Shown here in pieces: positions 6,620-24,923 of a stretch of DNA of 64,000 bases. Origin of the DNA: Pseudophaeobacter sp. EL27 (GTDB taxonomy: Bacteria > Pseudomonadota > Alphaproteobacteria > Rhodobacterales > Rhodobacteraceae); contig NZ_OMPQ01000015.1 of the NCBI RefSeq assembly GCF_900313025.1, forward strand, positions 195,775 through 259,774. Direction: 5' to 3'. The position numbers and the translations under genes are program-made. Below the pieces are notes generated by a model, which was given only the letters and a program-made list of their open reading frames with translations, was not told the origin of the DNA and did no database searches. Each line of letters opens with the position of its first letter. The stretch's first letter is position 1.

Positions 6620-7894
6620 TCAGCTGCGCCCTTTCCAAGGAACCAGCCAGTTCTCGGCCCGGCGCATCAGCACATCGATGCCAAAGCCGATAACTCCGAT
6701 AAGTATGATCCCCATGAGCACGATGTCGGTCAGTTGGAACTTGGATGCGACCATGATCATCATCCCGGCGCCTTCCGACGCCGCAACCAGTTCGGCCGCA
6801 ACCACCGTGCCCCAACAGACCCCCATGGCGACACGCGCGCCGGTAAAGATCTCGGGCAGCGAGTTAGGCATGATGACATGGCGCATGATCTGCAGCTTGC
6901 TTGCGCCCAAGGAATAGGCCGCATGCACCTTGGAGATATTGACCCCCGACACACCTGCCCGCGCCGAAATCGCCATGATCCAAAGCGAAGCCAAGAACAA
7001 CAGGATGATCTTGCCCACCTCGCCGATGCCAAACCAGATGATAACCAGCGGGATCAGCGCCAGCGGCGGCACTGGGCGCATGAATTCCACGATCGGTTCG
7101 AACCAGCCACGGAACCAGTCGCTCAAACCCATCGCATAGCCCAGAGGGATCCCGATCAGCGCCCCGAAGAAGAAGCCCGCAATCACGCGAAACAGCGAAT
7201 AGCCCAGGTGTTTCCACAGCGTGCTGTCACGGTAGCCTTCATTGGCAATTTCAATCACACGGCCCACAACAGCTTCGGGCGGCGGCAGCCAGATCGGCTC
7301 CATCTGCAAGCCCTTGGGCGGAGAGAAGCTGATCGCGCCCTTGCTGGTCAGGGCAAAGCGCCCCGCATCGGTACGGATCGAGCCGCCCGGTGCAATCGCG
7401 ACACCATCAATGGCGACAACCCGGGTCCCATCTTTGCGCGTGACCTCGTCATTCTTGTCAAACAGCACAGTGGCCGAACGCGAGGCGGACATGGCCAGCG
7501 CATCGTCCTTGGCAAACCCGTCGCCGAGCGGCACGTCAAACTTCTCCGGCTTCTCACCGAAATCCACGACGCGCACATGCACTGTGGCATCATCGCGTTC
7601 GCCATCTTGGGTGGCCACCGTATAGGTAAAGGATGTCTCGCCGACAAACGGTCCCGGCGCGTGCAGGAACCCCGGCACCCAGGCCGACCCTGTGAAGGAT
7701 CCCCAAAGCAGGAAAATCGTCAGAACCGAGACCACCGAAGCAGACCGGTTCGAAATCACCGCGCTTTCGTCGCCAAAGGTCACGGTTTTGAGCGAGGTAA
7801 AATCAGTACTCGTGCGCTGCACGAAGAACCGCACAACAAGGAAGGAGATCACGAAAATCGCGACGTATACCAGCAGGATCATCAAACCGATCAT
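6620..7894 (-). CDS. ABC transporter permease, TauC/SsuC/NrtB type, with large insert
   Basis: Inner-membrane permease of a taurine/nitrate/sulfonate-type importer. The C-terminal binding-protein-dependent transport domain (about 225-415) has the EAA-loop sequence SLGASKLQIMRHVIMPNSLP, which contacts the ATPase. At 424 residues it is much longer than the roughly 250-280 of TauC. The extra part is an N-terminal TM helix (about 3-22), a second TM (about 53-73) and a soluble segment of about 120 residues before the core, presumably periplasmic. The gene overlaps the upstream ATPase gene by 4 bp and is last in a substrate-binding protein-ATPase-permease operon. Confidence 0.85.
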   Translation of the reverse strand: MIGLMILLVYVAIFVISFLVVRFFVQRTSTDFTSLKTVTFGDESAVISNRSASVVSVLTIFLLWGSFTGSAWVPGFLHAPGPFVGETSFTYTVATQDGERDDATVHVRVVDFGEKPEKFDVPLGDGFAKDDALAMSASRSATVLFDKNDEVTRKDGTRVVAIDGVAIAPGGSIRTDAGRFALTSKGAISFSPPKGLQMEPIWLPPPEAVVGRVIEIANEGYRDSTLWKHLGYSLFRVIAGFFFGALIGIPLGYAMGLSDWFRGWFEPIVEFMRPVPPLALIPLVIIWFGIGEVGKIILLFLASLWIMAISARAGVSGVNISKVHAAYSLGASKLQIMRHVIMPNSLPEIFTGARVAMGVCWGTVVAAELVAASEGAGMMIMVASKFQLTDIVLMGIILIGVIGFGIDVLMRRAENWLVPWKGRS

Positions 7895-8697
7895 TGCATT
7901 TCCTCCGAACGACCCATGATTTCTTCTTCCATGTCCCAGATCATTTCCAGGATTTCTTCGCGCGTCGTGGCATAGCCTTCTGCTTTCTTGACTTCGCGCA
8001 GGTCACCCCCAACGCCCATTTCGGCAAAGGGAAGCCTGTATTCCTTGTGAATGCGTCCTGGACGCGGGGCCATAACGAGAAGTCGCTCGCCCAAAAGCAG
8101 GGCCTCTTCCACGGAGTGAGTGATCAGGATGATGGTCTTGCCCGTCTCTTTCCAGAGCTTCAGCACGAGGCCCTGCATCTTTTCGCGGGTCAGCGCATCC
8201 AGCGCGCCCAGCGGTTCATCCATGAGGATCACGTCAGGATCATTGGCCAGGCAGCGGGCAAGCGCCACACGCTGCTGCATGCCTCCGGAAAGTTCAAAGA
8301 TCGCCTTGTCCTTGAAATCGCCAAGACCGGTCACGTCAAGCAGGTGATCCACCTGATTGCCCCATTCCGCTTCGGTCTGCCCCTTCATCCTTGGGCCGAA
8401 GCTGACATTTTCGCGCACGTTCATCCATTCGAACAAAGCGCCTTGTTGGAACACCATGCCGCGCTCGGCGTCGGGGCCCTTGACCACGTGCCCGTTCATG
8501 GTGATTTGACCTCCTGTCGGCGCCAGAAACCCGGCCGCGATGTTCAGCAAGGTGGTCTTGCCACAGCCCGAAGGGCCGAGCACGCTCAGAAGCTCACCGG
8601 GCTTGAGATGCAGCGAGACGTCTTTCAGCGCCTGCACCGAACTGCCGTTGGGCAGATCAAAGCGCATAGAGATGCTTTCAATAGATAGTCCTGACAT
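7891..8697 (-). CDS. ABC transporter ATP-binding protein, TauB/SsuB type
   Basis: ATPase subunit of the same importer. Walker A GPSGCGKTT (about 40-48), signature LSGGMQQRVALARCL (about 140-154) and Walker B VILMDEPLGALD are all intact. ATG at 8697 is preferred because AAGGGA lies about 10 nt upstream. A GTG three codons earlier (8706) sits almost on top of that ribosome site. About 268 residues, normal for the family. The stop overlaps the permease start. Confidence 0.9.
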   Translation of the reverse strand: MSGLSIESISMRFDLPNGSSVQALKDVSLHLKPGELLSVLGPSGCGKTTLLNIAAGFLAPTGGQITMNGHVVKGPDAERGMVFQQGALFEWMNVRENVSFGPRMKGQTEAEWGNQVDHLLDVTGLGDFKDKAIFELSGGMQQRVALARCLANDPDVILMDEPLGALDALTREKMQGLVLKLWKETGKTIILITHSVEEALLLGERLLVMAPRPGRIHKEYRLPFAEMGVGGDLREVKKAEGYATTREEILEMIWDMEEEIMGRSEEMQ

Positions 8698-8798
8698 AGG
8701 CAGCACGTCCCTTTTGAGAAATGTGTGGGAGGACGGACGGCCCCGGACGGAGCCACTCTGAAAGGCAGCGACCCGCGCCGCTGCCCCAGTTGGTATCC

Positions 8799-9803
8799 TT
8801 AATTGCCACCGGCGCTTGCAAGCGGATCGGTGTTGACGTTGCTCTCATAGGAATCGAGGGCCGCGTTGATGCTCTTGGCCTCGACAAACACGTCCGCAAC
8901 GCCCTTCATGAAGGTCTGAGCATTCCCACCAAGCCACTTCTCCGAAAGCTGATCGTCAACAGTCGGGAAGGTGAAGGTCGCGATGGTTTCCGCGGTGGCG
9001 GCTTCATCCATGCCCGCGTCCTTGGCAATCAGCGGCAGCATTTTTGCGTGGTTGGCCGGATCGGCCCACATTGCGTTAGCATCTGCCGTCACCTTGAGGA
9101 ACTGGGAAACCACGTCGCCGTTCTCGGCAACCCAGTCAGCCGGGCCGGAGGTGACATCAAACACCAGGATGCCAATCTCGGTCTTTTCAGCACCGGTCAG
9201 CAGCACGTTGCCATGCTCCAGAGCGCGGCGCAGTGATCCGCCCCAGCCGCAGAACATGTCGATTGAGCCCTGTGCAATCGCAGCGGCCGCATCCGGCGGA
9301 TCCATGTCGACCACATCCATCGAGGCGACATCAACGCCAAAGTGGCTCATCTGCTTGAGGAAGCCATAATGCGCGGCGGTGCCCAGCGGCACAGCGACTT
9401 TCCGGCCGGCCAGTTCGCCCGCATTGGTCTTGTCGATCTCCAGTTCCGAACGCACGACGCAGTTATCGTTGTCAGCATAGCTCACGGCGACATCAAGGAT
9501 CTCCAGATTTTGCCCGGCGCTGGCGGCAACTACGAAAGGCGGCAGGCCCTGGCTGACCGAAAGGTGAACATCACCCGAGGCCATGGCAGCTGACATTTTC
9601 ACACCGCTTTCAAAGCTGACCCAGTTGATGTCCATGCCAAGGACTTCTTCATAAGTGCCCATCTGCTTGGCATATTCGAACGGCATCGGCCATTCGAGGA
9701 AATAGGCCACGGTGATGCTCTCGGCGCTGGCCTGTGCAGCGGCAAGTCCGGCCACGCCGGCTGCAAAAGCTGCAATGGTATTTCTGAGGGGCTTCGTCTT
9801 CAT
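8799..9803 (-). CDS. ABC transporter substrate-binding protein, TauA/SsuA-like
   Basis: Periplasmic binding protein of 334 residues. The Sec signal peptide ends near ASA-ES (residue 28). The mature part begins SITVAYFLEW, the usual first strand and ligand loop of the taurine/sulfonate/nitrate class. VKMSAAMASGDVHLSV, AVPLGTAAHYGFL and GSIDMFCGWG are hinge and pocket blocks of this family. It is first in the importer operon and divergent from a LysR gene. The ligand is not fixed by sequence; the sulfonate-type enzymes across the regulator make an amino-sulfonate plausible. Confidence 0.85.
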   Translation of the reverse strand: MKTKPLRNTIAAFAAGVAGLAAAQASAESITVAYFLEWPMPFEYAKQMGTYEEVLGMDINWVSFESGVKMSAAMASGDVHLSVSQGLPPFVVAASAGQNLEILDVAVSYADNDNCVVRSELEIDKTNAGELAGRKVAVPLGTAAHYGFLKQMSHFGVDVASMDVVDMDPPDAAAAIAQGSIDMFCGWGGSLRRALEHGNVLLTGAEKTEIGILVFDVTSGPADWVAENGDVVSQFLKVTADANAMWADPANHAKMLPLIAKDAGMDEAATAETIATFTFPTVDDQLSEKWLGGNAQTFMKGVADVFVEAKSINAALDSYESNVNTDPLASAGGN

Positions 9804-10000
9804 TGTAGTCTCCCTGTTCTTTTTCTGGGTCGCTTCCTTGCGACTTGGGTAAGCCGCGAAGAATTCCGGCTGTTAATATCTCGCAATGTTTTCCGCCCAT
9901 TTGTCCAATAAAACTCGATTTTCGCAAAAAGATGGACTTTAGTTCCGAAATTTTCGAATGTAGCGCAGGATTCGCATAGATATCATGCAAAAGGTCGGTC
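9804..10000. promoter_or_regulatory. Divergent promoter region, importer / LysR
   Basis: 197 bp between the divergent binding-protein and LysR genes. It holds a near-palindrome at 9943-9958 (TTCCGAAA followed by TTTTCGAA) and the shared 18-bp motif at 9911-9928. This is the expected location for autoregulation and co-control of the importer. Confidence 0.45.
9911..9928 (+). promoter_or_regulatory. Candidate operator, copy 1
   Basis: AAACTCGATTTTCGCAAA matches 14 of 18 positions with 11078-11095 upstream of the catabolic operon. It lies 108-125 bp before the binding-protein start. Such a shared site would let one regulator, most likely the LysR gene lying between, control both uptake and breakdown. 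Confidence 0.35.
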
Positions 10001-10981
10001 ATGCAGCGCAGTAACCTAAGCCTTCGCGGGCTCGAGATCTTTCAACTGATCTCCAAATCGGGCTCGGTCCGCAAGGTCTCCGAGGAAACCGGTCTCTCGA
10101 TCAGCACCATATCACACCATTTGCGAAGTATTGAAGATAGCCTTGGGGTCGACCTAGTAGACCATTCCCGCCGCCCGATGGTATTGACCCCCGCAGGTGA
10201 AGTTTTTGCCCATCACGTCGGAATTGGGTTGCAGGCGATTCGTCGGGGTGAAACAGAGCTCACAGCAGGCAACCTTGCCCAGGTCCGGGAGCTGCGCCTG
10301 GGCATTGTCGATGATTTCGATAGCGAGGTCGCACCGGAACTGGCCCAATTCCTGTCTCAGGCCATGCCAAAATGTACGTTTAAACACCTCACCCGTCCCA
10401 GCCACGACATCATCCGCCTGCTGCACGAAAAGAAGCTCGACATCGGTATGGCGACGCGCCCGATCAGTGGGGATGCGGGGCTGGTCGAACTGCCTTTGCT
10501 GCGCGATCCTTTTGTGATTGCCTTGCCGGCCAATGCCACGGAACCGCCCGAAGCCTATCTGGCAGGACGGTCAAAACTGCCCTTCCTGCGCTATTCCAAG
10601 AACCTGATTATTGGCAACCTGATCGAACTGCATTTACGGCGCACGCAGATATCCTTGGACAACCGCTTTGAGCTGGAGAGCAACCATTCCCTGCTTGGCA
10701 TGGTTGCAGAAGGCACCGGCTGGGCGATCACCACGCCGGCCAGCTACAACCGCGTCAAACGCTATCAAAACCGCATCACGCTCCATGCCTTCCAGAACAA
10801 GAGCTTTGCGCGGGAATTGTCGTTGTTTCGCGCGGACTACTATCCTCAGGCGACGGCCGATCTGATCGGCGGCACGTTGCGGCGCCTGCTGTCGCGCCAT
10901 TTCATCGAACCGATCCTGGATAACCACCCTTGGCTTTCCAATGATTATCGTCTGCTGGAAAAGCCCGGAACCGACAGTTAA
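10001..10981 (+). CDS. LysR-family transcriptional regulator of the island
   Basis: LysR-type regulator of 326 residues. The N-terminal HTH (about 5-65) contains GSVRKVSEETGLSISTISHH; the effector-binding domain follows at about 95-300. AAGGTC lies just before the ATG. The gene sits between the divergent importer operon and the downstream catabolic operon on its own strand, so it most likely controls both. The inducer is unknown and is probably the imported compound or a breakdown product. Confidence 0.87.
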   Translation: MQRSNLSLRGLEIFQLISKSGSVRKVSEETGLSISTISHHLRSIEDSLGVDLVDHSRRPMVLTPAGEVFAHHVGIGLQAIRRGETELTAGNLAQVRELRLGIVDDFDSEVAPELAQFLSQAMPKCTFKHLTRPSHDIIRLLHEKKLDIGMATRPISGDAGLVELPLLRDPFVIALPANATEPPEAYLAGRSKLPFLRYSKNLIIGNLIELHLRRTQISLDNRFELESNHSLLGMVAEGTGWAITTPASYNRVKRYQNRITLHAFQNKSFARELSLFRADYYPQATADLIGGTLRRLLSRHFIEPILDNHPWLSNDYRLLEKPGTDS

Positions 10982-11077
10982 CGCCCCTAACAGATAACGG
11001 CCTTTCCGTACCCAAAACCGCTCTGCGATGCCTTTGCGGGCTTGTCAATTCGTGAGATCCGAAACAACTGGCAAACT

Positions 11078-11095
11078 AAATTCGATTTTTTCCAA
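11078..11095 (+). promoter_or_regulatory. Candidate operator, copy 2
   Basis: AAATTCGATTTTTTCCAA, 71-88 bp before the FAD-dependent oxidoreductase start, matches 14 of 18 positions of the copy at 9911-9928. The central TCGATTTT is identical. Nothing else in the 184-bp gap (10982-11165) looks coding. Confidence 0.35.
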
Positions 11096-11165
11096 TCTGA
11101 AGACTTCCCATTGCGCCACCGCCGACCCTGCGAGCAGTTTGCAGGCAACGCATTAGGAGATCGCA

Positions 11166-13604
11166 ATGAAATCGAGAACCAAAGTAGTGGTCATTGGCGG
11201 CGGCATCGCTGGCTGCTCGACACTCTATCATCTCACCCGGGAAGGTTGGAGCGACGTGGTCCTCGTTGAACGCAACGAGCTGACCAGCGGCACCACCTGG
11301 CACTCGGCCGCGCAGGTCACGAACTTTGGTGGCAACCAGACCATGGTTGGGCTGAAGACCCATTCCATCAACCTTTACAAAGAGTTGTCGGAGAACCCTG
11401 AATATCCGATCAACTATCACCACGCTGATGGCGGCATCCGACTGGCCAATACCGAAGAGCAGATGCAGGGCTATCGGCATTTCTCTTCGATGGCTCGCGG
11501 CATGGGCGTGGATCTGGAAGTGATCGACGCCGAGGAATGCGCCCGCCGCCACCCGCTGATTTCCACCACCAACCTGTTGGGTGGCCTTTGGGATCCGCTG
11601 GATGGCGATATCGATCCGGCGCAGCTGTGCCAGGCGCTGGCGTATCATGCGCGCAAGGCCGGGGCCGAAGTCTATCGCAACACGCCTGTCACCGCGCTGA
11701 CCCAACACAAGGACGACACCTGGACCGTGCACACCGAACATGGCGATATCGACTGTGACATCGTGGTCAACGCCTGCGGTTACCGCGTGAACGAAGTGGG
11801 CGCGATGATGGGTGTGCATCACCCGGTGGCGTCAATGGAGCACCAATATTTCCTGACCGAGGACATCCCGGCCATTGCCGAGGCCGGCCACCGCATGCCG
11901 CTATTGCGCTGCCCGATCTCGGACTATTACTCGCGCCAGGAAAAAGGCGGTCTGCTGGTCGGCTTTTATGAACAGGACTGCAAGACCTGGGGCATGGACG
12001 GGATCGACCCGAACTTTGTGAATGCGCTGTGCCCGGACGATCTGGACCGCGTGATGGATGTGCTGGCCGGTGCCTTTGAACGTATGCCCGCGCTGGAAGA
12101 AACTGGTATCCGCTCCATCGTCAACGGCCCGATCACCTATACCATCGACGGCGCTCCGCTGGTGGGTCCGATCCCGGGCAAGCGCAACGCGTTCTGCATC
12201 ATCGGGTTGCGCGCTGGTCTGGGCGAAGGCGGCGGCCACGGCTGGCTTCTGGCGCAACAGATCGTGCATGGTGAAGCCCAGTATGACACCTGGTGCATCG
12301 ATCCGCGCCGATTTACCGGGCACACCAACGTGGAACTGACCGCACTGAAGGCCATCGAAGACTATCAGAACGAATTCCGCTTTCACTTCCCCCACGAACA
12401 CCGCCCTGCCGGCCGTCCCGCGAAAACCACGCCGCTGACCCCTGTCCTTGCCGCTGAAGGCGCCGAATTCACCGTGGTCAACGGCTGGGAACGTGTCGAC
12501 TACATCAAGCCCAGCCCCGATTTCCACCCGTCGTTGTCGTTCAACTTTGACGAAGCCTTCGACATCGTCGGGGCCGAAGTCAAAAATGTTCAGGACAATG
12601 TCGGCCTGTGTGAGGTCAACGGCTTCAACCGGTTCGAAATCACCGGTGCGGATCGCCACAGCTTCCTCGACCGTTTGTTCTGCGGCAACGTGACCAAACG
12701 CGACGGCCGGGTTGGCCTCGGTTACATGCTGAACGACCACGGCATGGTCAAAGGCGAAGCAACAGTCGCCAACTTGCCCGAAAGCGACTGTGGTCCGGCG
12801 CGGGTGTGGTTCGGTTCGGCAGCGGCTGCCGAGTTCCACGACATGGACTGGCTGACCCAGCATGTGCGCGACCACGAAGACGTCGAGATCAAATCGCTGA
12901 CCAATGACCAGACCATCCTGGTTCTGGCCGGCCCCAATGCGCGTAAAGTGCTCAGCGCTTGTGCGCGTGGAGACTGGTCGAAACAGGCCTTCCCCTGGCT
13001 GTCAGCGCGCGAATGCTTCATTGGTTTTTCGCCCGCAACCGTGCTGGGTGTCAGCTTCTCGGGCGAGCTGGCTTACGAAATCCATGTTCCAAATGCTTCG
13101 CTTTACGCGGTCTACCTGGCGCTCCGTGCTGCGGGTGAGGCCTACGGCATGCAGCTGTTTGGCGCCCGCGCCGTGGACTCGATGCGCATGGAAAAAGGGT
13201 TCTTGCACTGGAAAGCCGACCTGCTGACCGAGTTCGACCCGTTTGAAACCGCGTTGGACCGGTTCGTGAAGCTGGACAAGGAGGCCGACTTTATCGGCAA
13301 GGAGGCGCTGCGCAAACGGCATGCCGAAGGTCCGCGCAGCAAGCTGGTCTCCCTCAGGATAGACGCGACCCACGCCCCTGCCCATGGTGGCGCCTCGCTG
13401 ATGCAGGGCGACGCGGTGGTTGGCACCATCACCTCGGGCGACTGGGGCCACCGCGTCGGCATGAACCTTGCCTACGCCTTCGTCGAGCCTAGTCTGGCAA
13501 AAGAAGGCAGTACCATGGAGCTGGACCTGTGCGGGGACCGGGTACCGGCCACCGTCATAACGCCGTCTCCTTACGATCCCAGCTACGAACTGATGCGGAG
13601 TTAA
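11166..13604 (+). CDS. FAD-dependent oxidoreductase with GcvT domain (dimethylglycine/sarcosine dehydrogenase family)
   Basis: An 812-residue two-domain enzyme. The N-terminal DAO-type FAD domain has the dinucleotide motif VIGGGIAG (about 9-16) and TTWHSAA with His46, the position where DMGDH and sarcosine dehydrogenase bind FAD covalently. The C-terminal half (about 420-805) is a GcvT/aminomethyltransferase domain that in relatives moves the released one-carbon unit to tetrahydrofolate. Family knowledge therefore predicts oxidative N-demethylation of a secondary or tertiary methylamine. AGGAG precedes the ATG by 7 nt. It is first in a six-gene operon, 3 bp before the GlxA-like regulator. The exact substrate is unknown; the neighbours suggest an N-methylated amino acid or amino-sulfonate. 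Confidence 0.85.
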   Translation: MKSRTKVVVIGGGIAGCSTLYHLTREGWSDVVLVERNELTSGTTWHSAAQVTNFGGNQTMVGLKTHSINLYKELSENPEYPINYHHADGGIRLANTEEQMQGYRHFSSMARGMGVDLEVIDAEECARRHPLISTTNLLGGLWDPLDGDIDPAQLCQALAYHARKAGAEVYRNTPVTALTQHKDDTWTVHTEHGDIDCDIVVNACGYRVNEVGAMMGVHHPVASMEHQYFLTEDIPAIAEAGHRMPLLRCPISDYYSRQEKGGLLVGFYEQDCKTWGMDGIDPNFVNALCPDDLDRVMDVLAGAFERMPALEETGIRSIVNGPITYTIDGAPLVGPIPGKRNAFCIIGLRAGLGEGGGHGWLLAQQIVHGEAQYDTWCIDPRRFTGHTNVELTALKAIEDYQNEFRFHFPHEHRPAGRPAKTTPLTPVLAAEGAEFTVVNGWERVDYIKPSPDFHPSLSFNFDEAFDIVGAEVKNVQDNVGLCEVNGFNRFEITGADRHSFLDRLFCGNVTKRDGRVGLGYMLNDHGMVKGEATVANLPESDCGPARVWFGSAAAAEFHDMDWLTQHVRDHEDVEIKSLTNDQTILVLAGPNARKVLSACARGDWSKQAFPWLSARECFIGFSPATVLGVSFSGELAYEIHVPNASLYAVYLALRAAGEAYGMQLFGARAVDSMRMEKGFLHWKADLLTEFDPFETALDRFVKLDKEADFIGKEALRKRHAEGPRSKLVSLRIDATHAPAHGGASLMQGDAVVGTITSGDWGHRVGMNLAYAFVEPSLAKEGSTMELDLCGDRVPATVITPSPYDPSYELMRS

Positions 13605-13607
13605 ACC

Positions 13608-14696
13608 ATGTCGCAGGAGGTTCGTGTTACCATTCTGGTTGCCAACGGCTTCGTGCCCACGGAACTGGCGCTTGCACAGGATATCTTGCGCATCGCCACC
13701 CGCGTGGGTCGTGGTCTGACTTTCACTTGTCAGGTCTGTTCAATGAACGGCGAAGACTTTGTTGAAGTTCTTGGCGGTTTGTTGGCCCGAACCGAAGGTT
13801 TCTCGGTTGACGAGGCTGTTCTTCCAGACCACCTGATCGTTTTAGGTGGCAAGGGGGCATGTTCCGGGTTTTCTCAATTGCGCGCACGATTGCGATGGTT
13901 CGAACGCATGGGCCGGGACGTTCTTTTGCTGTCCGATGCCGCGTCGGAATGGAAGCAACTCTACCCTGACGACGCACTGGTTACGACACACTGGGAAATC
14001 CAACAGCGCGCCCGCGACGCGGGTCATGGGCTCGATGGCGCGCTCCCTCTTTTTTCCCAGGCCAGCCGCATCACCACCGCCGCTGGTATGGCATCCACCG
14101 CCGACGTAGTTCTAAACCGGATCGTGGCGCCTAAATCGCTGCAACTGGCCCAGGCCGTCGGTCAGGTCTTGCTCCTGCACGGCATCCGGGAAGGCGACAC
14201 CAGCCAACCGTGCAGTGTCAACGACGTTGGAGCACTTCGTCTTCCCGGGCTGGAACCAGTGGTTGCTGCAATGGAACAGAACATGGATACGCCGCTCAAA
14301 ACCACTGAACTCGCCGAGATAGTTGGCTTGTCGGTCCGCCAGTTGGAACGCAAGTTTCTTAGCATCGTTGGCCAAAGTCCGGCGGCGTTTTATCGATCGC
14401 TACGATTGCACCGCGCACGCAATCTAATCGAGCATACAGCCCTACCTCTTTGCGAAGTAGCCCTGGCCTGCGGGCTGGGCACCACGTCGAACTTTTCACG
14501 TAGGTACGCCCTCGAGTTTGGCGTGAGCCCAACACGGCGGCGTGCCCAGCTGTCCGCCACCGCGTCACAAGAAAAGCCTACAACACACACTCAAGGAATT
14601 CAGAATGCACCTATCTCGCTTCCCACGCGTCCATCTCGCCCATCTGTCTACGCCACTCGAACCGATGAAGCGTTTGTCGGAGGCGCTCGGCGTTGA
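13608..14696 (+). CDS. GlxA-like AraC-family regulator (GbdR/CdhR/SouR type)
   Basis: A 362-residue regulator with a DJ-1/PfpI-like N-terminal domain (about 5-175) and a C-terminal AraC helix-turn-helix pair (about 230-325, with [21 protein letters not shown] in the second half). Relatives of this layout regulate betaine, carnitine and sarcosine catabolism, which agrees with the upstream demethylase. GGAG lies about 8 nt before the ATG. The AraC homology ends near SPTRRRAQL. The last 30 or so codons, of low complexity, overlap the start of the next gene by 92 bp, which is unusual. The natural stop may have been lost. Confidence 0.85.
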
Positions 14697-15618
14697 TCTG
14701 TGGATCAAACGCGACGATTGCACTGGCATGTCCACGGGCGGGAACAAGACCCGCAAGCTGGAATTCCTGATGGCCGAGGCGCTGGAACAGGGGGCTGATA
14801 TGGTCATGACCCAGGGTGCCACACAGACCAACCATGGTCGCCAAACAGCAGCCTTTGCCGCCAAACTGGGGCTGAAGTGCCATATCCTGTTGGAAGATCG
14901 CACTGGTTATCAGGACGGGAATTACAACACCAACGGCAATGTGTTGCTCGACCATTTGCATGGCGCCACGACTGAAAAGTTTCCAGGCGGCCACGATATG
15001 CCCGGGGAAATGGAGCGCGCGGCTGAAAAAATGCGTGCAAAGGGCCATAAGGTCTATGTGATCCCTGGTGGCGGGTCGAATCCGACCGGCGCGCTTGGCT
15101 ATGTGAACTGCGCCTTTGAACTTCTTGCCCAGGCCAATGAAACCGGACTAAAAATTGACCGAGTTGTGCATGCGACCGGGTCGTCAGGCACTCAGGCCGG
15201 GCTGGTGACCGGGCTTTGCGCGATGAACTCCGCCGTTCCGGTACTGGGCATCGGCACGCGTGCACCGCAACCGAAACAGGAACAGATGGTGTATGACCTG
15301 GCGTGCAAGACCGCCGAGAAGCTCGGTTGCCCGGGCGTGGTCAAGCGCGAAGATGTCATGGCCAACACCGACTATGTCGGCGAAGGGTATGGCGTACCCA
15401 CTGAAAGCGGCATCGAGGCCATCCGGATGTTTGCCGAACTGGAAGGGATTCTGCTGGACCCCTGCTATTCGGCCAAGGGTGCAGCAGGCCTGATCGACCT
15501 CGCGCGCAAGGGCGCATTCAAGGACGAAACCGTAGTGTTCCTGCACACCGGCGGGGCAGCCGCCCTGGGCGGGTACGATTTCGCATTCGATAACGCTGAC
15601 CGCTGGGTCAACCTGTAA
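14605..15618 (+). CDS. cuyA: CuyA-like L-cysteate sulfo-lyase (D-cysteine desulfhydrase/ACC deaminase family)
   Basis: PLP-dependent lyase of 337 residues. ATG at 14605 follows AAGGAA by 8 nt, and the family N-terminus MHLSRFPR starts there. The PLP lysine is in [12 protein letters not shown] (Lys48). [31 protein letters not shown] and the glycine-rich [11 protein letters not shown] phosphate loop follow. From memory the whole chain resembles CuyA of Ruegeria pomeroyi more than E. coli DcyD. CuyA converts L-cysteate to pyruvate, sulfite and ammonium. D-cysteine desulfhydrase or ACC deaminase activity are alternatives that sequence alone does not exclude. It lies inside the operon, 13 bp before the DegT-family gene. 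Confidence 0.75.
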
Positions 15619-15631
15619 GGAGACGGCCACC

Positions 15632-16825
15632 GTGGTGTGCAAATTCACAGGATCATTCACGCAACAGGAAGCGCTTCCTGCCGCAGCTGTGGATGCCGCA
15701 GTGGCCGTGCTGAATACCGGCCGCCTGCATCGCTATAACCTGGCCGAAGGTGAACCCGGCGAGGTTGCCATTCTGGAGGCCGCGTATCGCGAATGGCAGG
15801 GCAGCGCGTTTTGCCTTGCGGTCACCTCCGGGGGGCAAGCCCTGCAAATTGCCATGCGCGCTTGCGGAGTCACACCCGGCACGCCGGTGTTGACCAATGC
15901 CTTCACGCTCGCCCCTGTTCCTGGTGCGATTGCGGCGGTCGGGGGCAATCCGGTTCTGGTCGAAATTGACGAAACCCTGCGTCTGGACCTGACCGACTTG
16001 GAACAGAAAATCGATACCAGCGGCGCAAAGGTTCTGCTGGTGTCGCATATGCGTGGACATCTCTGCGACATGGAGAGGCTCATGCAGATCTGCGACGACA
16101 GGGATGTCGTGGTGATCGAGGATTGCGCCCATACCATGGGGGCAACATGGAATGGCAAGCGTTCAGGTAATTTCGGAGCGATGGCTTGTTTCTCGACCCA
16201 GACTTACAAGCATATGAATTCCGGCGAAGGCGGTTTGCTGACAACTGACAATGCGGATCTGGCGGCCCGCGCAACGATCCTGTCAGGAAGTTACATGCTG
16301 TACGGACGCCACGGAGCTGGCCCCGATGACGTCGCCTTTGCTGATGCCCGGCTAGACATGCCCAATTGTTCGGCCCGCATGGATGCGTTACGCGCCGCCG
16401 TTCTGCGTCCGCAGCTTGCACGGCTGGACCAGTCAATCACCCGCTGGAATAGGCGCTACAGAATTATCGAGGACGGTCTGTGCGATGCGCCGCATATCTC
16501 ATTGATCATGCGTCCAGTCGCGGAACAGCCGGTCGGATCTTCGATCCAGTTCCGCCTGCCGGCTTTTTCCGCTGCTCGATGCCAGAGGGTGCTTGCCACG
16601 GCCTCCGAGCGTGGGGTTGATCTGAAATGGTTCGGCGGGTCGGAACCTTCCGGCTTTACCTCCTCTCATGGCACCTGGCGGTATATCCCGGTGCAGGCCC
16701 TGCCTACGACAGATTCAGTGCTATCGACATTGTTCGATATGCGCCTTCCCCTGACATTTTCAGAAGCAGACTGCGCCCTGATCGCCAAGATTATCCGCGA
16801 CGTGGTGGATGAGGTGGCGACATGA
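15632..16825 (+). CDS. DegT/DnrJ/EryC1-family PLP aminotransferase
   Basis: A 397-residue aspartate-aminotransferase-fold enzyme of the DegT group. The PLP aldimine lysine is Lys193 in TYKHMNSGEGG, and the Asp contacting the pyridine nitrogen is Asp164 in VIEDCAHTMG. The GTG start at 15632 has AAGGAGA 8 nt upstream. Relatives transfer amino groups to keto-sugars or cyclitols, so the role beside a cysteate lyase is not obvious. It could remove or move the amino group of the imported compound. It ends in a 4-bp overlap with the racemase gene. Confidence 0.8.
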   Translation: MVCKFTGSFTQQEALPAAAVDAAVAVLNTGRLHRYNLAEGEPGEVAILEAAYREWQGSAFCLAVTSGGQALQIAMRACGVTPGTPVLTNAFTLAPVPGAIAAVGGNPVLVEIDETLRLDLTDLEQKIDTSGAKVLLVSHMRGHLCDMERLMQICDDRDVVVIEDCAHTMGATWNGKRSGNFGAMACFSTQTYKHMNSGEGGLLTTDNADLAARATILSGSYMLYGRHGAGPDDVAFADARLDMPNCSARMDALRAAVLRPQLARLDQSITRWNRRYRIIEDGLCDAPHISLIMRPVAEQPVGSSIQFRLPAFSAARCQRVLATASERGVDLKWFGGSEPSGFTSSHGTWRYIPVQALPTTDSVLSTLFDMRLPLTFSEADCALIAKIIRDVVDEVAT

Positions 16826-17541
16826 CGGGGTTTGCATCCAGACGCGTGGTCGGAATTCTGGGCGGCATGGGCCCTGAAGCGACGGTCCTGCTGCAACAGC
16901 GAGTATTGGCAACCGTAGCCGCCAGAGACGATTCCGATCATTTACCGCTGTTGATCGACATGAATCCGCAGATCCCGTCGCGCATTGCCCATCTGATTGA
17001 CCAGACCGGAGAGGATCCCGGCCCGACTCTGGCGGCCATGGCTCAGCGGCTCGAGGCCGCAGGTGCCACTGCTCTGGGCATGCCGTGCAACACGGCGCAT
17101 CACTATGCCAGCGCCGTGACCAAAGCCGTCACGATTCCACTTCTGAACATGATTGATCTGTCAGTTGCCAAGGCCGCCTGTCATTTGCGACCGGGTCAAC
17201 ACATCGGGTTTCTGGCTTCCCCTGCGGTACAATCGGCTGGCGTATTTGACGGGGCTCTCAGACAAGCCGGGTTGCAGCCGCTCTGGCCAGAGGACGGCGA
17301 CCGCATGCTCTCTGCCATTCGAGAGATCAAAGCAAAGGGTCCGACAGCGCGCGCACGCCAAATCCTGATCGATGCGGCCCATGAACTGACCACCAAGGGC
17401 GCGGCCATCCTGTTTGTCGCCTGCTCCGAATTCTCACTTATCGCGCGCGATCTGCCAGAGGATTTTCCAACCCTCGACACTGTTGATGTGCTGGCAGATG
17501 CGATCCATGACCACACCCTTTCACAGGAAGTGAACCCGTGA
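16822..17541 (+). CDS. Aspartate/glutamate racemase-family protein
   Basis: A 239-residue racemase of the Asp/Glu/hydantoin superfamily. Both catalytic cysteines of the two-base mechanism are visible: Cys89 in GMPCNTAHHY and Cys201 in LFVACSEFSL. ILGGMGPEAT at the N-terminus is the family signature. Cysteate is a structural analogue of aspartate (sulfonate for beta-carboxylate), so racemisation of D-cysteate to L-cysteate for the upstream lyase is a reasonable inference. Aspartate or another amino acid remains possible. The gene overlaps both neighbours by 4 bp. Confidence 0.83.
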   Translation: MTGFASRRVVGILGGMGPEATVLLQQRVLATVAARDDSDHLPLLIDMNPQIPSRIAHLIDQTGEDPGPTLAAMAQRLEAAGATALGMPCNTAHHYASAVTKAVTIPLLNMIDLSVAKAACHLRPGQHIGFLASPAVQSAGVFDGALRQAGLQPLWPEDGDRMLSAIREIKAKGPTARARQILIDAAHELTTKGAAILFVACSEFSLIARDLPEDFPTLDTVDVLADAIHDHTLSQEVNP

Positions 17542-18806
17542 CCGTTACATATTTGAAAGAAGCCGCCCCCCGTCCTGCACTGGAAAACACCGGTATCCGC
17601 GAGGTTGTCAGCTCCATGTTGACAAATATCGAACGCGACGGCGAAGAGGCTGTGCGCCGCTATGCCAAAGAGCTCGACCGATGGGAGAGCGACATTGTCC
17701 TGTCCGATGCCGACCGCGCTGCAGCCTGCGCGAGAGTGCCTGAGGACGTGAAGGCCGACATCCGTTTTGCCTACGCCAATATTCGCCGCTTCGCCGAGGC
17801 GCAACAGGCGACGGTACAGGAATGCGAAATCGAGGTCATTCCTGGCTTGATCGCCGGGCAGAAGCAGATCCCGGTGTCCTGTGCAGGCTGTTATGTCCCT
17901 GGGGGACGCTACAGCCACATCGCCAGCGCGTTGATGACAATCACTACAGCCAAGGTTGCCGGGGTTCCCCATATCACTGCCGTATCGCCGCCGCGTGAAG
18001 GGGGCATCCCTGATGCCATCGTCTATGCAATGGATCTAAGTGGTGCCGATCTTATCCTGAATCTGGGCGGGGTTCAGGGGATCGCCGCCATGGCCCAGGG
18101 GCTGTTTGGTGGGAAGCCTGCGGATATATTGGTTGGCCCCGGCAATTCCTATGTCGCGGAAGCGAAGCGCATGCTGTTTGGTGATGTCGGCATCGACATG
18201 TTTGCCGGGCCGACGGACTCGTTGGTTATTGCTGATCACACGGCCTCGGTCGAAACCGTCTCCTGGGATCTGGTCAGCCAGGCCGAACACGGTACCGACA
18301 GCCCCGTCTGGTTGATCGCCACCGATCGCGCCCTGGCCGAAGGCGTGCTTGAGCGTGTCCACACGCTGATCGCCGACCTGCCGGAACCTAATGGCGCAGC
18401 GGCCCGTATCTCTTGGGAAGACCGGGCTGAGGTTATCCTGTGCGACACACGGGAAGAAGCAGTGGCCGTGTCCGATCGCTACGCGCCAGAGCACCTCCAC
18501 GTACAGGCGGACCAGCTTGATTGGTGGCTGGATAAGCTCGGCGCCTATGGATCACTGTTCCTTGGCGCGGAAACGACCGTGTCCTTCGGTGACAAAACGT
18601 CAGGACCGAACCACGTCCTGCCCACCAGTGGTGCCGCGCGTTACACTGGCGGTCTGTCAGTCCACAAGTTCACCAAGACAGTGACCTGGCAACGGTGTAA
18701 CTCTGAAGCCTCACACGAACTGGCGCAAAGGACCGCTCGAATTAGCCGTATGGAGGGCATGGAGGGCCACGCCCGCGCCGCTGAGATGCGTCTGACCGGA
18801 GCCTGA
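17538..18806 (+). CDS. Histidinol dehydrogenase homologue, HpsN-like
   Basis: A 422-residue zinc- and NAD-dependent dehydrogenase of the HisD family. All expected active-site residues are present: Gln248 and His251 (QAEH), the catalytic pair Glu318-His319 (PEHL), Asp352 (GDKTSGPNH) and His411. The family performs a four-electron oxidation of a primary alcohol to a carboxylate. No other his genes are nearby, and the sequence resembles roseobacter HpsN (sulfopropanediol 3-dehydrogenase) in AARYTGGL and KFTKTVTWQR. In this operon it could oxidise an amino alcohol sulfonate such as cysteinolate to cysteate. GTG start, 4-bp overlap with the racemase stop. Last gene of the operon. Confidence 0.8.
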   Translation: MTVTYLKEAAPRPALENTGIREVVSSMLTNIERDGEEAVRRYAKELDRWESDIVLSDADRAAACARVPEDVKADIRFAYANIRRFAEAQQATVQECEIEVIPGLIAGQKQIPVSCAGCYVPGGRYSHIASALMTITTAKVAGVPHITAVSPPREGGIPDAIVYAMDLSGADLILNLGGVQGIAAMAQGLFGGKPADILVGPGNSYVAEAKRMLFGDVGIDMFAGPTDSLVIADHTASVETVSWDLVSQAEHGTDSPVWLIATDRALAEGVLERVHTLIADLPEPNGAAARISWEDRAEVILCDTREEAVAVSDRYAPEHLHVQADQLDWWLDKLGAYGSLFLGAETTVSFGDKTSGPNHVLPTSGAARYTGGLSVHKFTKTVTWQRCNSEASHELAQRTARISRMEGMEGHARAAEMRLTGA

Positions 18807-19218: not shown

Positions 19219-19258
19219 CTGCCCGGCAGGGTTATGCGTAGCGTGATCCCGAGAGGGT
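19219..19258 (+). repeat. 40-bp insert, copy A
   Basis: Plus-strand copy starting CTGCCCGGCAGGGT and ending GATCCCGAGAGGGT. It interrupts the transposase between the RSRVET block and MHCVKLMG. It matches copy B (19598-19637, opposite strand) at 34 of 39 positions. It begins with a near-palindrome (CTGCCCGGCAG). Confidence 0.8.
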
Positions 19259-19597
19259 GGTTTCGACCCGGCTTCGGCGGTGGTATCCGCTCCCTCTTCG
19301 CCAGATCGCGCGGCCTAGGTATCGCGATGCGTTGACTGCTTCGTTTTGGGCGATGGCCCCAGCGCTCGTCGGCTTCCAGGGCTTGGCGTTTTTGCGCGGT
19401 GGAATGATGGCGTCAGCACCACCTACAGCAATCGCCTCGTGGCATTTGCGCGTGTCATAGGCCCCATCAGCGGTCATTGATCCGATGTCCTGATCGGGCG
19501 GGATGTGATCCAGCAGGTCTGGCAGCATGGGCGCGTCTCCGACATTACTGGTGGTGACCTCGACGGCTCGAACCTCCAGCGTTTCCTCGTCGTTCCC

Positions 19598-19637
19598 CCT
19601 CTCGGGATCGTGCAATGCATGACCCTGCCGGGCAGTG
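19598..19637 (-). repeat. 40-bp insert, copy B (inverted)
   Basis: Minus-strand copy of the same sequence, reading CACTGCCCGGCAGGGT at its start and ending GATCCCGAGAGG. It interrupts the transposase between RMIHI and GNDEETLEVRA. Its length of exactly 40 nt shifts the frame by +1. Confidence 0.8.
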
Positions 19638-20277
19638 AATGTGTATCATGCGCCAAATGCGGCGCTTTGGGCCGCCATGCTCGCGCGCGTTCCATTCGCC
19701 TTCACCCTCGGCCTTGAGGCCGGTGCTATCGATAAGGAGGTTCAGTGGGCCTTTGCCGCCTCGATACGGTAGGCGCATGTTCAGCGTCTTTTGTCGGCGG
19801 CACAGCGTGCTGTAATCCGGCATCGCCCAGTCCAACCCTGCCAGCCGTAACAGGCTTTCGACAAAGCCAGAGGTCTGGCGGAGCGGCATGCCAAACAACA
19901 CTTTCAGCGTCAGGCAGGTCTGGATCGCGGCATCGCTGAAACTCTGATGCCGACCGCGTTTGCCGTTTGGCGGCGGCACCCAAACCATCTCGGGATCAAA
20001 CCAGATTGCCAGCGATCCACGACGCTTCAATGCCGTGTTGTAGGTCGACCAGTTTGTGGTCTTGTACTTCGTAGGTGTCCAACTGCTCATGGCCTCCAGC
20101 TATCATGCTGGATCCACAACGTGAATCCTCTCAAACCATTTGCGCAACAAAGCCAAGGGGAGGCATTAAGGTGAAGCTTCTATTACGTCCTTTGAGGCGG
20201 TCCTTAAACCTCAGCGTTTGCTTTACAGTTCTTGTGGTCAATGTAATGGTTCTACTATTCTTTAAGTGGAACGACTC

Positions 20278-21899: not shown

Positions 21900-24800
21900 G
21901 TGGAGGGGCTTGCACGATTTGGCATCGAGAAATCCCGCCTGACAATCCTCGCCATGATTGGCCTGCTGCTTATCGGTTGGATGAGCTTTATTGGCCTACC
22001 CAAGCGGGAAAACCCGGCAATCACCATCCGGGCTGTAAACATTACAGCGATGTACCCCGGCATGACGCCCGAGCGAATGGAAAACCTGATTGCGATCCCG
22101 CTAGAACGCGCGGCTCGGGAAATCGGCGAAGTCGATGATATCTCGACCCTTGTTGTCACCGGCCAGGTGACCATGAGCGTGATGGTCAGTGACAGCATTC
22201 CGGTTGCTGATCTGGAACAGGTGTTCACGGATATCCGCACCCGGATGGAGAGCACCCCCAGAGAGCTGCCCGAGGGAACGCAGGGCCCCTTTGTGAACAC
22301 CAACTATGGCGACGTCGCCATTGCCACCATTGCGGTGACCGGTGAAGGCTTTTCTTATGCAGAGATTTCAGACGCCGCCGAAGATTTGCAGACTGGTCTC
22401 TATCAGGTTGACGGCGTTACCAAAGTCACCCTGTCCGGTGAGCAGGATGAACGCATATGGCTCGAGCTGGACAGTCGCCGCCTGGCAAGTGTCGGGGTAC
22501 AACTCCCCCAGGTTCTAAATGATCTGAGTGCGCAGAATGTTATCTTACCAGCAGGAAGCATCGACGCGAATGGCACCTCTATTCTTTTGGAAACTGACGG
22601 CAACCTCACCTCGATAGAAGAGATTGAGCAGGTCCTGACAAAACTGCCACAGGGAGACATCGTAAAGCTTCGTGATCTGATGACTGTCCGGCGTGGTTAT
22701 GTCGACCCTGTTCAAAAGCCAGTCTACTTCAACGGTCAACCCGCGGTTCTTGTCAGCGTCGAAATGTCTGACACTGACGATGTGCAAAAGCTGGGCAGAC
22801 GTCTGAACGGCGAGATTGCGGCGCTTGAACAAAACCAGCCCGTCGGCATGTCCTACAGTATCTCGACCTTTCAGGAAACCAATGTCACCATTTCAATTAA
22901 CGGTGCCCTGTCCAACGTCGGCCAGACATTTGCTGTTGTCATTGTTGTGATGTTGCTGTTCCTCGGTCTGCGCCCGGCTTTGATCATCGCAAGCATCGTC
23001 CCCTTCACTGTGACCTTTGCTCTGTTGGCCATGTCCTACTTTGGCATTGATCTGGAGCAGATTTCCATTGCCGCTGTGATCATTTCACTCGGGCTTTTGG
23101 TTGATAACGGGCTAGTGGTGGTGGAAGATGTCGCGGCCCGCATCCGCCAGGGGGCCTCTCCCAAAGACGCGTCAATCGCAGCAAGTGGTCAGTTCTTCAT
23201 CCCACTCGCCGTTGCTTCTGTGACCACTGTGGCGGCCTTCATGCCGATGTTCATCCTCGAAGGTACATCGGGCGAATTCGCCTTCTCTCTGGGCGCTGTT
23301 GTGGCCATCATGCTGGCCGGCTCTTGGCTGACCGCGCACTACATCTTGCCTTTCCTGGCGGCGAACCTGCTGCGGCCTCAACCGGAAAAGGATAAGAGCG
23401 AAGGCCTGCTCGTGCGAGCCTACGGAAGCCTCATCCGACGTTTCATCCGATTCGGGATACCGGCAGTAGTGGTAAGCTACCTCTTGGTTGCGTTTGGCGT
23501 TTCAAGCTTTGGGTCCCTGCGGTCTGAGATGTTTCCACTGTCAGAGCGATCAGAATTCCTGATCTATGTGGACTTGCCCAAGGGCAGCTCGATCACCGAG
23601 ACCCAGCAAGAGGTGCTTTTGATCGAAAAATGGCTGCGAGACCCAGAAGTAAACCCTGGCGTGGCCAATACCACCCTGTTTGTTGGTCATGGTGGCCCGC
23701 GCTTTTATCTTGCGCTGTCACCCGCGGACACGGATCCGGCCAGCGCCTTTTTTGTGGTCAATACCCACAGCTTCGAAGACGCAGTCACCGCTTCAGACCG
23801 GGCCCGGAGCTACCTGATTGAAAACCACCCGGCGGTGCGTGCACGGGTCACCCGATTGTCTATGGGAGGCAGCGAAAGCGGTATTGTTGAAGTTGAGATA
23901 ACCGGCCCCGACGCGGATGTGTTGTTGCAGGCCGCAGCCAAGATTGAGACGGCTTTTGACAGCGTGCCTTCCATGATCCTCAACCAAAACGACTGGGGAA
24001 ACAAAACCATCACCGTTGGCCTTGATCTTCTGCAAGAAAAGGCGCGTCAGTTGGGGGTGACCTCGCAAGATGTCTCCAATGTGATGCAAGCCTATTTCTC
24101 CGGCACCGAAATCTCGGTCTATCGAGACCAATCAGATCAGATCCCGATCGTCGTCCGGGCCGAAGATGTTTTTAGGGACAGCTTGGAAGATCTGTTTAAC
24201 ATGTCGATCTCCACAGAGAATGGTCTTGTTGCATTGGATCAGGTTGCAGTCTTTCAGCCCCGGCTGGAATTGGCGCAAATACGTCGCGAAAATCAGAAAC
24301 GGCAGATCGTTGTTTCTGGCAAAAGCGCTACCTTGCCAGCAGCTCAGGTCGAGGCCTTGATTGCACCCACCATTGCGGCACTGGACTTAGGGCCTGACTA
24401 CGCAGTGGTGATTGGAGGGGAAAGTGCGGATTCAGCAGAATCCAATGCAGACCTCCTTGCTGGCATGCCCTATGCGCTCATGACCATGATTGCCGCGCTT
24501 GTGTACCAGTTCAACTCGGCACGCCGGGTGGCACTAACTTTTATGACTATACCTCTTATCGTAGTTGGCGCGCCGCTCGCCTTGCTCCTTACCAATCAGC
24601 CGCTATCCTTCTTTGGAATACTCGGGTTGGTGTCGCTCATGGGGATCATCATCAATAATGCTATCGTGTTGATAGATCAGATCGACATTGAGCGTGGGGA
24701 ACAGCCTTTGGATGAAGCGATCATCACGGCTTCCAAAAAACGGCTGAGCCCGGTCCTGTTGACGTCACTGACAACGATCCTAGGGCTGTTGCCGATGGCG

Positions 24801-24923
24801 CTTGTTGGCGGCGCCCTATTTGAGCCCATGGCGACGTTGATGATTGGTGGCTTGTTGTTTGCCTCGCCTCTGTCGCTGATCTTTGTCCCTCTGTCCTATC
24901 GTCTGTTGTTTCCGGATCGATGA
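21900..24923 (+). CDS. RND-family efflux permease
   Basis: Inner-membrane proton-driven exporter of 1007 residues, AcrB/MexB superfamily. TM1 (ILAMIGLLLIGWMSFIGL) leads into FVNTNYGD and other porter-domain blocks. The TM4 region has GLLVDNGLVVVEDV, with the Asp used in proton relay, and the second half has GIIINNAIVLIDQID. The GTG start has GAGG just before it. It is co-transcribed with the adaptor lipoprotein. The divergent acidic N-terminus (VEGLARFGIEKSRLT) resembles the subgroup found in marine alphaproteobacteria; the substrate is unknown. Confidence 0.92.
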   Translation: MEGLARFGIEKSRLTILAMIGLLLIGWMSFIGLPKRENPAITIRAVNITAMYPGMTPERMENLIAIPLERAAREIGEVDDISTLVVTGQVTMSVMVSDSIPVADLEQVFTDIRTRMESTPRELPEGTQGPFVNTNYGDVAIATIAVTGEGFSYAEISDAAEDLQTGLYQVDGVTKVTLSGEQDERIWLELDSRRLASVGVQLPQVLNDLSAQNVILPAGSIDANGTSILLETDGNLTSIEEIEQVLTKLPQGDIVKLRDLMTVRRGYVDPVQKPVYFNGQPAVLVSVEMSDTDDVQKLGRRLNGEIAALEQNQPVGMSYSISTFQETNVTISINGALSNVGQTFAVVIVVMLLFLGLRPALIIASIVPFTVTFALLAMSYFGIDLEQISIAAVIISLGLLVDNGLVVVEDVAARIRQGASPKDASIAASGQFFIPLAVASVTTVAAFMPMFILEGTSGEFAFSLGAVVAIMLAGSWLTAHYILPFLAANLLRPQPEKDKSEGLLVRAYGSLIRRFIRFGIPAVVVSYLLVAFGVSSFGSLRSEMFPLSERSEFLIYVDLPKGSSITETQQEVLLIEKWLRDPEVNPGVANTTLFVGHGGPRFYLALSPADTDPASAFFVVNTHSFEDAVTASDRARSYLIENHPAVRARVTRLSMGGSESGIVEVEITGPDADVLLQAAAKIETAFDSVPSMILNQNDWGNKTITVGLDLLQEKARQLGVTSQDVSNVMQAYFSGTEISVYRDQSDQIPIVVRAEDVFRDSLEDLFNMSISTENGLVALDQVAVFQPRLELAQIRRENQKRQIVVSGKSATLPAAQVEALIAPTIAALDLGPDYAVVIGGESADSAESNADLLAGMPYALMTMIAALVYQFNSARRVALTFMTIPLIVVGAPLALLLTNQPLSFFGILGLVSLMGIIINNAIVLIDQIDIERGEQPLDEAIITASKKRLSPVLLTSLTTILGLLPMALVGGALFEPMATLMIGGLLFASPLSLIFVPLSYRLLFPDR

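Follow-up and report, generated by a model that had tools for sequence, protein, structure and literature searches.

What substrate is served by a gene island that sets a taurine-type importer beside a cysteate lyase, a cysteate racemase, and a relative of histidinol dehydrogenase? The question is raised by positions 6620–18806 of a 64,000-nucleotide stretch of contig NZ_OMPQ01000015.1 from Pseudophaeobacter sp. EL27, which, at its full length, we refer to as the window. Cysteinolate, 2-amino-3-hydroxypropane-1-sulfonate, is an abundant algal osmolyte, and we think it probable, judging from sequence and gene context, that the island encodes an inducible pathway that imports cysteinolate, and perhaps N-methylated relatives too, with pyruvate, ammonium, and sulfite as the end products. 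A dehydrogenase for a C3 alcohol that adjoins both a cysteate racemase and a cysteate lyase points to this substrate.

As we picture the route, TauABC would take up the amino-sulfonate (and probably taurine), and, should the substrate be methylated, an enzyme resembling dimethylglycine dehydrogenase (DMGDH) would move its N-methyl groups to tetrahydrofolate. The dehydrogenase of HpsN type would then oxidize CH2OH to COOH with two NAD+, yielding L-(R)-cysteate, which CuyB would convert to D-cysteate and CuyA would cleave to pyruvate, ammonium, and sulfite. A DegT-family enzyme would probably transaminate cysteinolate to and from the corresponding keto-sulfonate. Substrates, stereochemistry, induction, and reactions in this organism are predictions throughout, most tentative for the DMGDH-like and DegT enzymes. 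The genes are as follows (ABC, ATP-binding cassette; PLP, pyridoxal phosphate).

6620–7894, minus strand: TauC-type ABC permease (Pfam PF00528; top NCBIfam model TauC, 235 bits, cut-off 342)
7891–8706, minus strand: TauB-type ABC ATPase (NCBIfam taurine ATPase, 269 bits, under the cut-off of 357)
8799–9803, minus strand: TauA-type periplasmic binding protein (TIGR01729, 154 bits, under the cut-off of 304; top PDB entry TauA 6ssy)
10001–10981, plus strand: LysR-type regulator, between the divergent importer and catabolic operons (Pfam HTH_1 and LysR_substrate)
11166–13604, plus strand: DMGDH-like FAD/GcvT enzyme, putative N-demethylase (DAO, FAO_M, GCV_T, and GCV_T_C)
13608–14696, plus strand: AraC/GbdR-type regulator (GbdR model, 131 bits, under the cut-off of 480)
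14605–15618, plus strand: CuyA, D-cysteate sulfo-lyase (NF052482, 525 bits, cut-off 450)
15632–16825, plus strand: DegT-family PLP enzyme (PF01041, 197 bits; PLP-type lysine in QTYKHMNSGEGG)
16822–17541, plus strand: CuyB, cysteate racemase (NF052483, 274 bits, cut-off 190)
17538–18806, plus strand: NAD dehydrogenase of the HpsN type, proposed to act on (R)-cysteinolate (top PDB entries RpHpsN 8wwe and CpHpsN 8v35)
19232–20090, minus strand: transposase remnants, two overlapping open reading frames directly 3' of the operon (PF01609, PF13737)

An earlier reading of the window, made from the sequence only, had described ten genes here (a taurine-type importer operon, a LysR gene between, and a six-gene operon), and all ten open reading frames are present in that arrangement and spacing. 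The junctions of the six plus-strand genes are, in order, a 3-base gap, a 92-base overlap (araC/cuyA), a 13-base gap, and two 4-base overlaps, with the cuyA start (14605) set from family alignments. Conservation of the six-gene set, which the sequence-only reading had named among its checks, is borne out by wide co-occurrence, with the exact order in one named record, a plasmid of Leisingera methylohalidivorans (locus L263). The same genes, order, and 92-base araC/cuyA overlap in that plasmid argue that the window operon is not a chance neighbourhood; the shared overlap also marks the araC/cuyA junction as old and conserved rather than recent.

The dehydrogenase is of the HpsN type

The last gene of the operon had been described as a HisD/HpsN-like dehydrogenase with a complete active site. 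Its top PDB relatives are the (R)-2,3-dihydroxypropane-1-sulfonate (DHPS) dehydrogenase 8wwe, which we take to be Ruegeria pomeroyi SPO0594, and CpHpsN 8v35, along with related entries; HisD chains lie far lower. A crystal structure of SPO0594 is described in PMC11131964 (papers given by PMC number are cited here for individual passages). HpsN enzymes bear the mark G-R-Y-A/S-H and HisD enzymes the motif G-S-A-P-L (PMC11382572). The window protein lacks the latter and has GGRYSH (residues 122–127) in its place, with E318, H319, D352, K353, H359, H411, and the sulfonate-binding His all kept. A true histidinol dehydrogenase is rejected by this motif and by the closest solved structures. Two proteins of the own genome (G000) match the window HpsN at E ≤ 1e-60, the second of which we take for HisD.

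A tree of 74 HpsN proteins separates the window enzyme from most of those encoded with hpsO and hpsP. Twenty-six of the 27 hpsOP-linked proteins, together with RpHpsN and one unlinked row, form a single 28-row clade (support 100/99), and the remaining hpsOP-linked protein groups with CpHpsN outside of it. All 33 cuyAB-linked proteins, the window's included, fall outside this clade; they comprise the window protein, that of locus L104 (with cuyA, without cuyB), and 31 of the 32 cuyB-locus proteins, L042 having been dropped as too short. Every one of the 33 keeps H126, T at 226, E318, and H319 (paper numbering), and 32 keep D352, K353, H359, and H411. Position 321, two after the catalytic His and mostly H or Q as opposed to T, is a candidate specificity marker.

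The window protein thus shares with the known HpsN enzymes (SPO0594/8wwe and CpHpsN/8v35) its family, motif, zinc and catalytic residues, and sulfonate-binding His. It differs from the R-DHPS 3-dehydrogenase in its place outside the hpsOP clade, in its partners cuyA and cuyB, and in an expected substrate that would carry NH2 rather than OH at C2. We regard it, on these comparisons, as an HpsN-type sulfonate dehydrogenase distinct from the DHPS enzyme of hpsNOP operons.

CuyA, CuyB, and the stereochemical course

Lyase and racemase are CuyA and CuyB by curated NCBIfam models, as had been anticipated in a CuyA-like lyase and an Asp/Glu-type racemase with both Cys; like the HpsN and TauABC-type parts, they are of known kinds. 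The alternatives raised for the lyase, D-cysteine desulfhydrase and 1-aminocyclopropane-1-carboxylate (ACC) deaminase, are rejected by equivalog models that all score under their cut-offs (D-cysteine desulfhydrase 308/429, 288/469, and 288/610; ACC deaminase 258/392; XcbE 256/450), though TIGR01275 ("D-cysteine desulfhydrase family"), a broad model at subfamily level, is passed (326 against 289). Residues C89 and C201 of CuyB, presumably the two catalytic Cys, are invariant in an alignment of the window protein with 18 relatives.

HpsN strictly prefers the R form, CuyA prefers D-cysteate, and CuyB interconverts L- and D-cysteate; in crystals of CpHpsN, L-cysteate occupies the site of the product R-sulfolactate (all PMC11382572). 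By Cahn–Ingold–Prelog reasoning, an R-strict HpsN and a D-preferring CuyA lead one to expect the racemase between them, with (R)-cysteinolate giving L-cysteate and then D-cysteate; were the alcohol oxidized directly to D-cysteate, the racemase would be needless. D-Cysteinolic acid was first proposed to fit the last three steps; the stereochemical course is corrected to this predicted sequence. The last two steps would be those of the known CuyA/CuyB pair. The known route feeds them by a sulfolactate dehydrogenase and an aminotransferase; in the window, an HpsN-type dehydrogenase and DegT would do so. Locus L104 (G070) has the layout tauCBA / cuyA-hpsN without cuyB, and a racemase may there be needless or located elsewhere.

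cuyB loci across genomes

cuyB scores over its cut-off in 58 of 295 family genomes. We compared 60 family cuyB loci, many ending at contig ends: the 59 places over the cut-off plus one in G241 (181 bits, just under), the window not counted. Within the stretches fetched, cuyA (≥50%) is found in 50 of these, an hpsN homologue in 32, degT (≥50%) in 12, and a DMGDH-like gene (≥60%) in four. Two DHPS operons supplied probes for hpsK and hpsM (both of the tripartite ATP-independent periplasmic, or TRAP, type), hpsO, hpsP, suyB, and slcC, none of which was found at ≥40% identity in any of the 60. In the searched stretch of the window (its first 30 kb), hpsO and hpsP were likewise not found, which sets its dehydrogenase gene apart from DHPS (hpsNOP) operons. 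In contrast, of 40 HpsN loci selected for lying away from cuyB, 27 have hpsO or hpsP. For named genomes, contigs were scanned by cuyB alignment, and the figures cover the best 80 of 568 confirmed loci at the identity limits of the script: 53 with cuyA, 43 with hpsN, 20 with degT, five with a DMGDH-like gene, three with MttB, and one with suyB. hpsO or hpsP at ≥45% occurs in none of these 80, with two hpsO-like matches at 38–39%.

Individual layouts tell the same story. The layout lysR / cuyA-degT-cuyB-tauABC-hpsN occurs on three Rhizobiales plasmids (Ancylobacter, Shinella, and Ensifer) and is followed in two of them by an alpha/beta hydrolase gene and a YeiH/PF03601 exporter gene, and locus L048 has tauCBA / lysR-cuyA-cuyB-hpsN with a LysR 76% identical to the window's. 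A Paracoccus plasmid shows the contrasting DHPS layout TRAP-hpsN-SDR-ADH-UxaA (SDR, short-chain dehydrogenase/reductase; ADH, alcohol dehydrogenase). The core steps as originally envisaged, oxidation, racemization, and cleavage by CuyA, are well supported by families and co-occurrence. Genes for Tpa-like aminotransferases stand with cuyB and hpsN in L089, L093, and L094, and window-type tau genes do so too in L089 and L094, which brings taurine genes and putative cysteinolate genes together at one site.

The DegT-family enzyme

The DegT gene, previously left unexplained, can now be proposed to encode an aminotransferase acting between cysteinolate and its keto-sulfonate, the latter being the natural partner if the enzyme is an aminotransferase. 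Its lysine in QTYKHMNSGEGG is presumably the PLP-binding one. The order cuyA-degT-cuyB recurs in Rhodobacterales and Rhizobiales; degT is missing from 23 of 32 hpsN-bearing family cuyB loci and from 31 of 43 hpsN-bearing named ones (best 80 of 568). A DegT match exists in 248 of the 295 family genomes, most among the matches listed at 56–62% identity; the own-genome paralogue (G000:C2:345019-346185, L269) adjoins genes read as glmU and glmS, whose domains fit.

Might this widespread paralogue have to do with synthesis? Roseobacters produce a lipid whose head group is cysteinolic acid, and PMC11631085 states that the gene responsible for the first step of its synthesis is not known; salA is described with an HX5D motif (PMC8319176). 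A SalA-type protein of the own genome, identified by HX5D and FPSGV motifs, served as query. Among the 295 genomes, 219 have both DegT and a strong SalA match (limit 1e-65, chosen after seeing the match list), 29 have DegT only, eight SalA only, and 39 neither, so that 37 are discordant (Fisher p 2e-22, ignoring kinship and genome completeness). That DegT presence tracks SalA suggests, by sequence distribution, that the DegT group handles cysteinolate, and makes the paralogue a candidate for the missing step of cysteinolic acid biosynthesis.

The importer and taurine

The binding protein is nearest to a sulfonate group, as foreseen: taurine TauA is its closest relative in both NCBIfam and PDB, though under the model cut-off. 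TauABC is the closest family for all three subunits, and all three stay under their curated taurine cut-offs, a result with which a taurine-like function is still compatible. The window TauA is the one TauA-type match in G000 at E ≤ 1e-80, and the importer therefore probably serves taurine too. A Tpa-like gene (74%) lies on another contig near a thiamine pyrophosphate enzyme read as Xsc from its domains, with genes read as TauR and TauE types nearby; the 14.5 kb covered there showed no TauABC. Compared with known TauABC, the window importer stands inside a probable cysteinolate island, with Tpa- and Xsc-like genes elsewhere. The permease (6620–7894) has an extra N-terminal part of ~190 residues outside the Pfam permease domain.

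In R. pomeroyi, the importer next to cuyA2 has been called a cysteate importer (PMC9038784; PMC9870897), and it was induced though axenic diatoms showed no cysteate (PMC8027193). Given that the Ruegeria clusters L187, L189, and L198 combine cuyAB with another transporter and show no hpsN in the fetched stretches, we make no claim that cysteinolate explains this mismatch.

The DMGDH-like enzyme and methylated substrates

The first gene of the operon has the full DMGDH architecture expected of it (DAO, FAO_M, GcvT, and GcvT_C), with dimethylglycine dehydrogenase as top PDB relative. On the plasmid of L. methylohalidivorans DSM 14336, the closest named relative found, the gene (hereafter dmg) stands in an array of betaine-type ABC importer (OpuAC), LysR, MttB, dmg-araC-cuyA-degT-cuyB-hisD, and PF03601 exporter; identities to the window are 89% for dmg, 55% for araC, 93% for cuyA, 71% for degT, 67% for cuyB, 84% for hpsN, and 45% for lysR. 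A metagenome genome (L183) has binding protein-lysR-mttB-dmg-cuyA-degT-cuyB-hpsN. These two blocks look as one would expect of a trimethylated-cysteinolate pathway. With DMGDH and MttB-DMGDH quaternary-amine modules the window enzyme shares its domain layout, nearest structures, and a gene pair found in the family; it differs in lying inside a sulfonate operon with no MttB beside it.

Nearness of dmg to sulfonate genes is not confined to cuyB. At least 12 of the 93 genomes with dmg homologues (G000, G007, G241, G293, G195, G100, G104, G123, G176, G004, G197, and G045) have hpsN, tauA, cuyB, or cuyA within 10 kb of it, from coordinates compared by eye and with L142 included, against a chance expectation of about one by rough arithmetic. 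Locus L147 (G197) has tpa-dmg-lysR / tauABC, a window-like layout with tpa replacing the cysteinolate genes, and is a candidate N-methyltaurine degradation locus. L141 (G004) holds hpsO-hpsN, dmg, MttB, LysR, DegT, and a putative betaine-type ABC importer (permease 37% and binding protein 23% identical to those of L263) in one stretch without cuyA, possibly another quaternary-amine sulfonate locus. At G269:C1:3309971-3314227, coordinates put a partial dmg match and a degT match 1.6 kb apart, recalling the window-type operon.

Weighing the alternatives

Several observations weigh against cysteinolate as the substrate, or against so clean a division of HpsN enzymes. The window dehydrogenase also passes TIGR00069, the domain model for HisD in NCBIfam (423 against 244), as expected for the superfamily, so that the split between HpsN and histidinol dehydrogenase comes down to motif and nearest relatives. 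The dehydrogenase phylogeny sets the window protein apart from the 28-row clade, but the cuyAB-linked proteins make up several lineages and no single clade. CpHpsN, whose action on DHPS is proven, falls outside the large hpsOP clade and has several of the residues that mark the cuyAB-linked proteins; these residues are thus no proof of specificity, and the groups are not cleanly split. hpsN is missing from 28 of 60 family and 37 of 80 named cuyB loci (the best 80 of 568), partly through contig ends, and cysteate alone is therefore probably a common substrate; cuyB is missing from L104, and in L103 dmg-hpsN stands with no cuyA.

It might be supposed that the island serves cysteate and taurine-like sulfonates only, with the HpsN-type enzyme acting on another alcohol. 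The naming of the R. pomeroyi importer and the commonness of cuyAB without hpsN speak for this, but hpsN directly 3' of cuyB with a 4-base overlap, a pairing repeated elsewhere, and the retained sulfonate-binding His make it very improbable in our view. A different possibility is that HpsN here converts R-DHPS to sulfolactate, a dehydrogenase encoded elsewhere gives sulfopyruvate, and DegT supplies L-cysteate to CuyB and CuyA. Such a route is described in PMC11382572, where the R. pomeroyi aminotransferase and CuyB genes are called unknown, and a PLP enzyme of aminotransferase fold is indeed encoded between cuyA and cuyB. Against it stand the absence of hpsO, hpsP, and slcC at ≥40% identity from the 60 family cuyB loci and of hpsO and hpsP at ≥45% from the named ones (best 80 of 568), the place of the window HpsN outside the main DHPS clade, and the lack of degT in most hpsN-bearing cuyB loci; in addition, no HpsP was found in the own genome at E ≤ 1e-20, in a search that had no positive control. 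We consider this variant unlikely.

There is close to an even chance, we judge, that dmg and the AraC/GbdR-type gene form a glycine betaine/dimethylglycine module that merely adjoins the cysteinolate operon or is co-expressed with it. Homologues of dmg at 56–92% identity occur in 93 of the 295 genomes and, to judge from coordinates, mostly do not lie near cuyB, a spread that weakens the notion of a demethylase belonging only to this system. In most of the neighbourhoods read beyond cuyB loci, dmg stands alone or with divergent MttB and LysR and no sulfonate genes; of 48 dmg loci, a set not drawn at random, 25 have MttB no more than 10 kb away. The dmg/MttB pair adjoins hpsN-hpsO(P), genes for the nitrogen-free DHPS, in L139–L141 (fetched because of this nearness), and in L140 a GMC oxidoreductase gene and a putative sulfatase end lie beside dmg. 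The regulator is of the GbdR type, though the GbdR/CdhR assignment first made holds at the level of the AraC/GbdR family and falls short of the model cut-off. Marine bacteria are reported to demethylate glycine betaine by the cobalamin-dependent MtgBCDE system (PMC12478193), and SPO3400 is named as the R. pomeroyi DMG dehydrogenase (PMC4744692), which makes a glycine betaine role a fair rival, and no N-methylated cysteinolate is reported in the literature searched or in the passages covered of the marine metabolite paper PMC8269262. On the other hand, operon and 92-base overlap are kept in L. methylohalidivorans, the adjacency is repeated in L060, L098, L142, L183, L184, L201, L214, L075, and L085, and dmg adjoins tauABC-tpa in L147. 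N-demethylation, part of the original proposal, is a plausible but tentative step.

Our preferred assignment, import and breakdown of cysteinolate, could be extended further. The operon may be a complete pathway for natural sulfobetaines, N-methyl up to trimethyl cysteinolate, with DegT and its paralogue as cysteinolate aminotransferases, an extension that we hold to be doubtful but worth stating. Uptake would be by betaine- or taurine-type importers and demethylation by the DMGDH-like enzyme and, in loci that have it, MttB, with the HpsN-type enzyme, CuyB, and CuyA finishing the route, as in the single block of L. methylohalidivorans; the cluster DegT would degrade cysteinolate, and the widespread copy would make the roseobacter sulfonolipid head group.

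Surroundings of the island

The transposase remnants (19232–20090) occupy the site where some relatives (L263, L266, and L267) carry a PF03601 exporter gene, and loss of the exporter may be linked to the insertion; one PF03601 protein is found elsewhere in the own genome. An efflux pump of the resistance-nodulation-division type (PF00873) lies shortly downstream at 21900–24923, and LptD and LptF/LptG genes lie further right.

Implications

No bacterial cysteinolate pathway was found in the open literature searched, judged on titles, abstract openings, and passages; the review of Burchill and Williams (2022) may discuss one. The plasmid records covered annotate these genes as "histidinol dehydrogenase" and "D-cysteine desulfhydrase." If our assignment is right, the trio hpsN-cuyA-cuyB would serve as a genetic marker of cysteinolate use, and counts of "HpsN" in ocean data would have to be split between DHPS and cysteinolate. 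The extension to sulfobetaines, if true, would predict a class of metabolite to look for.

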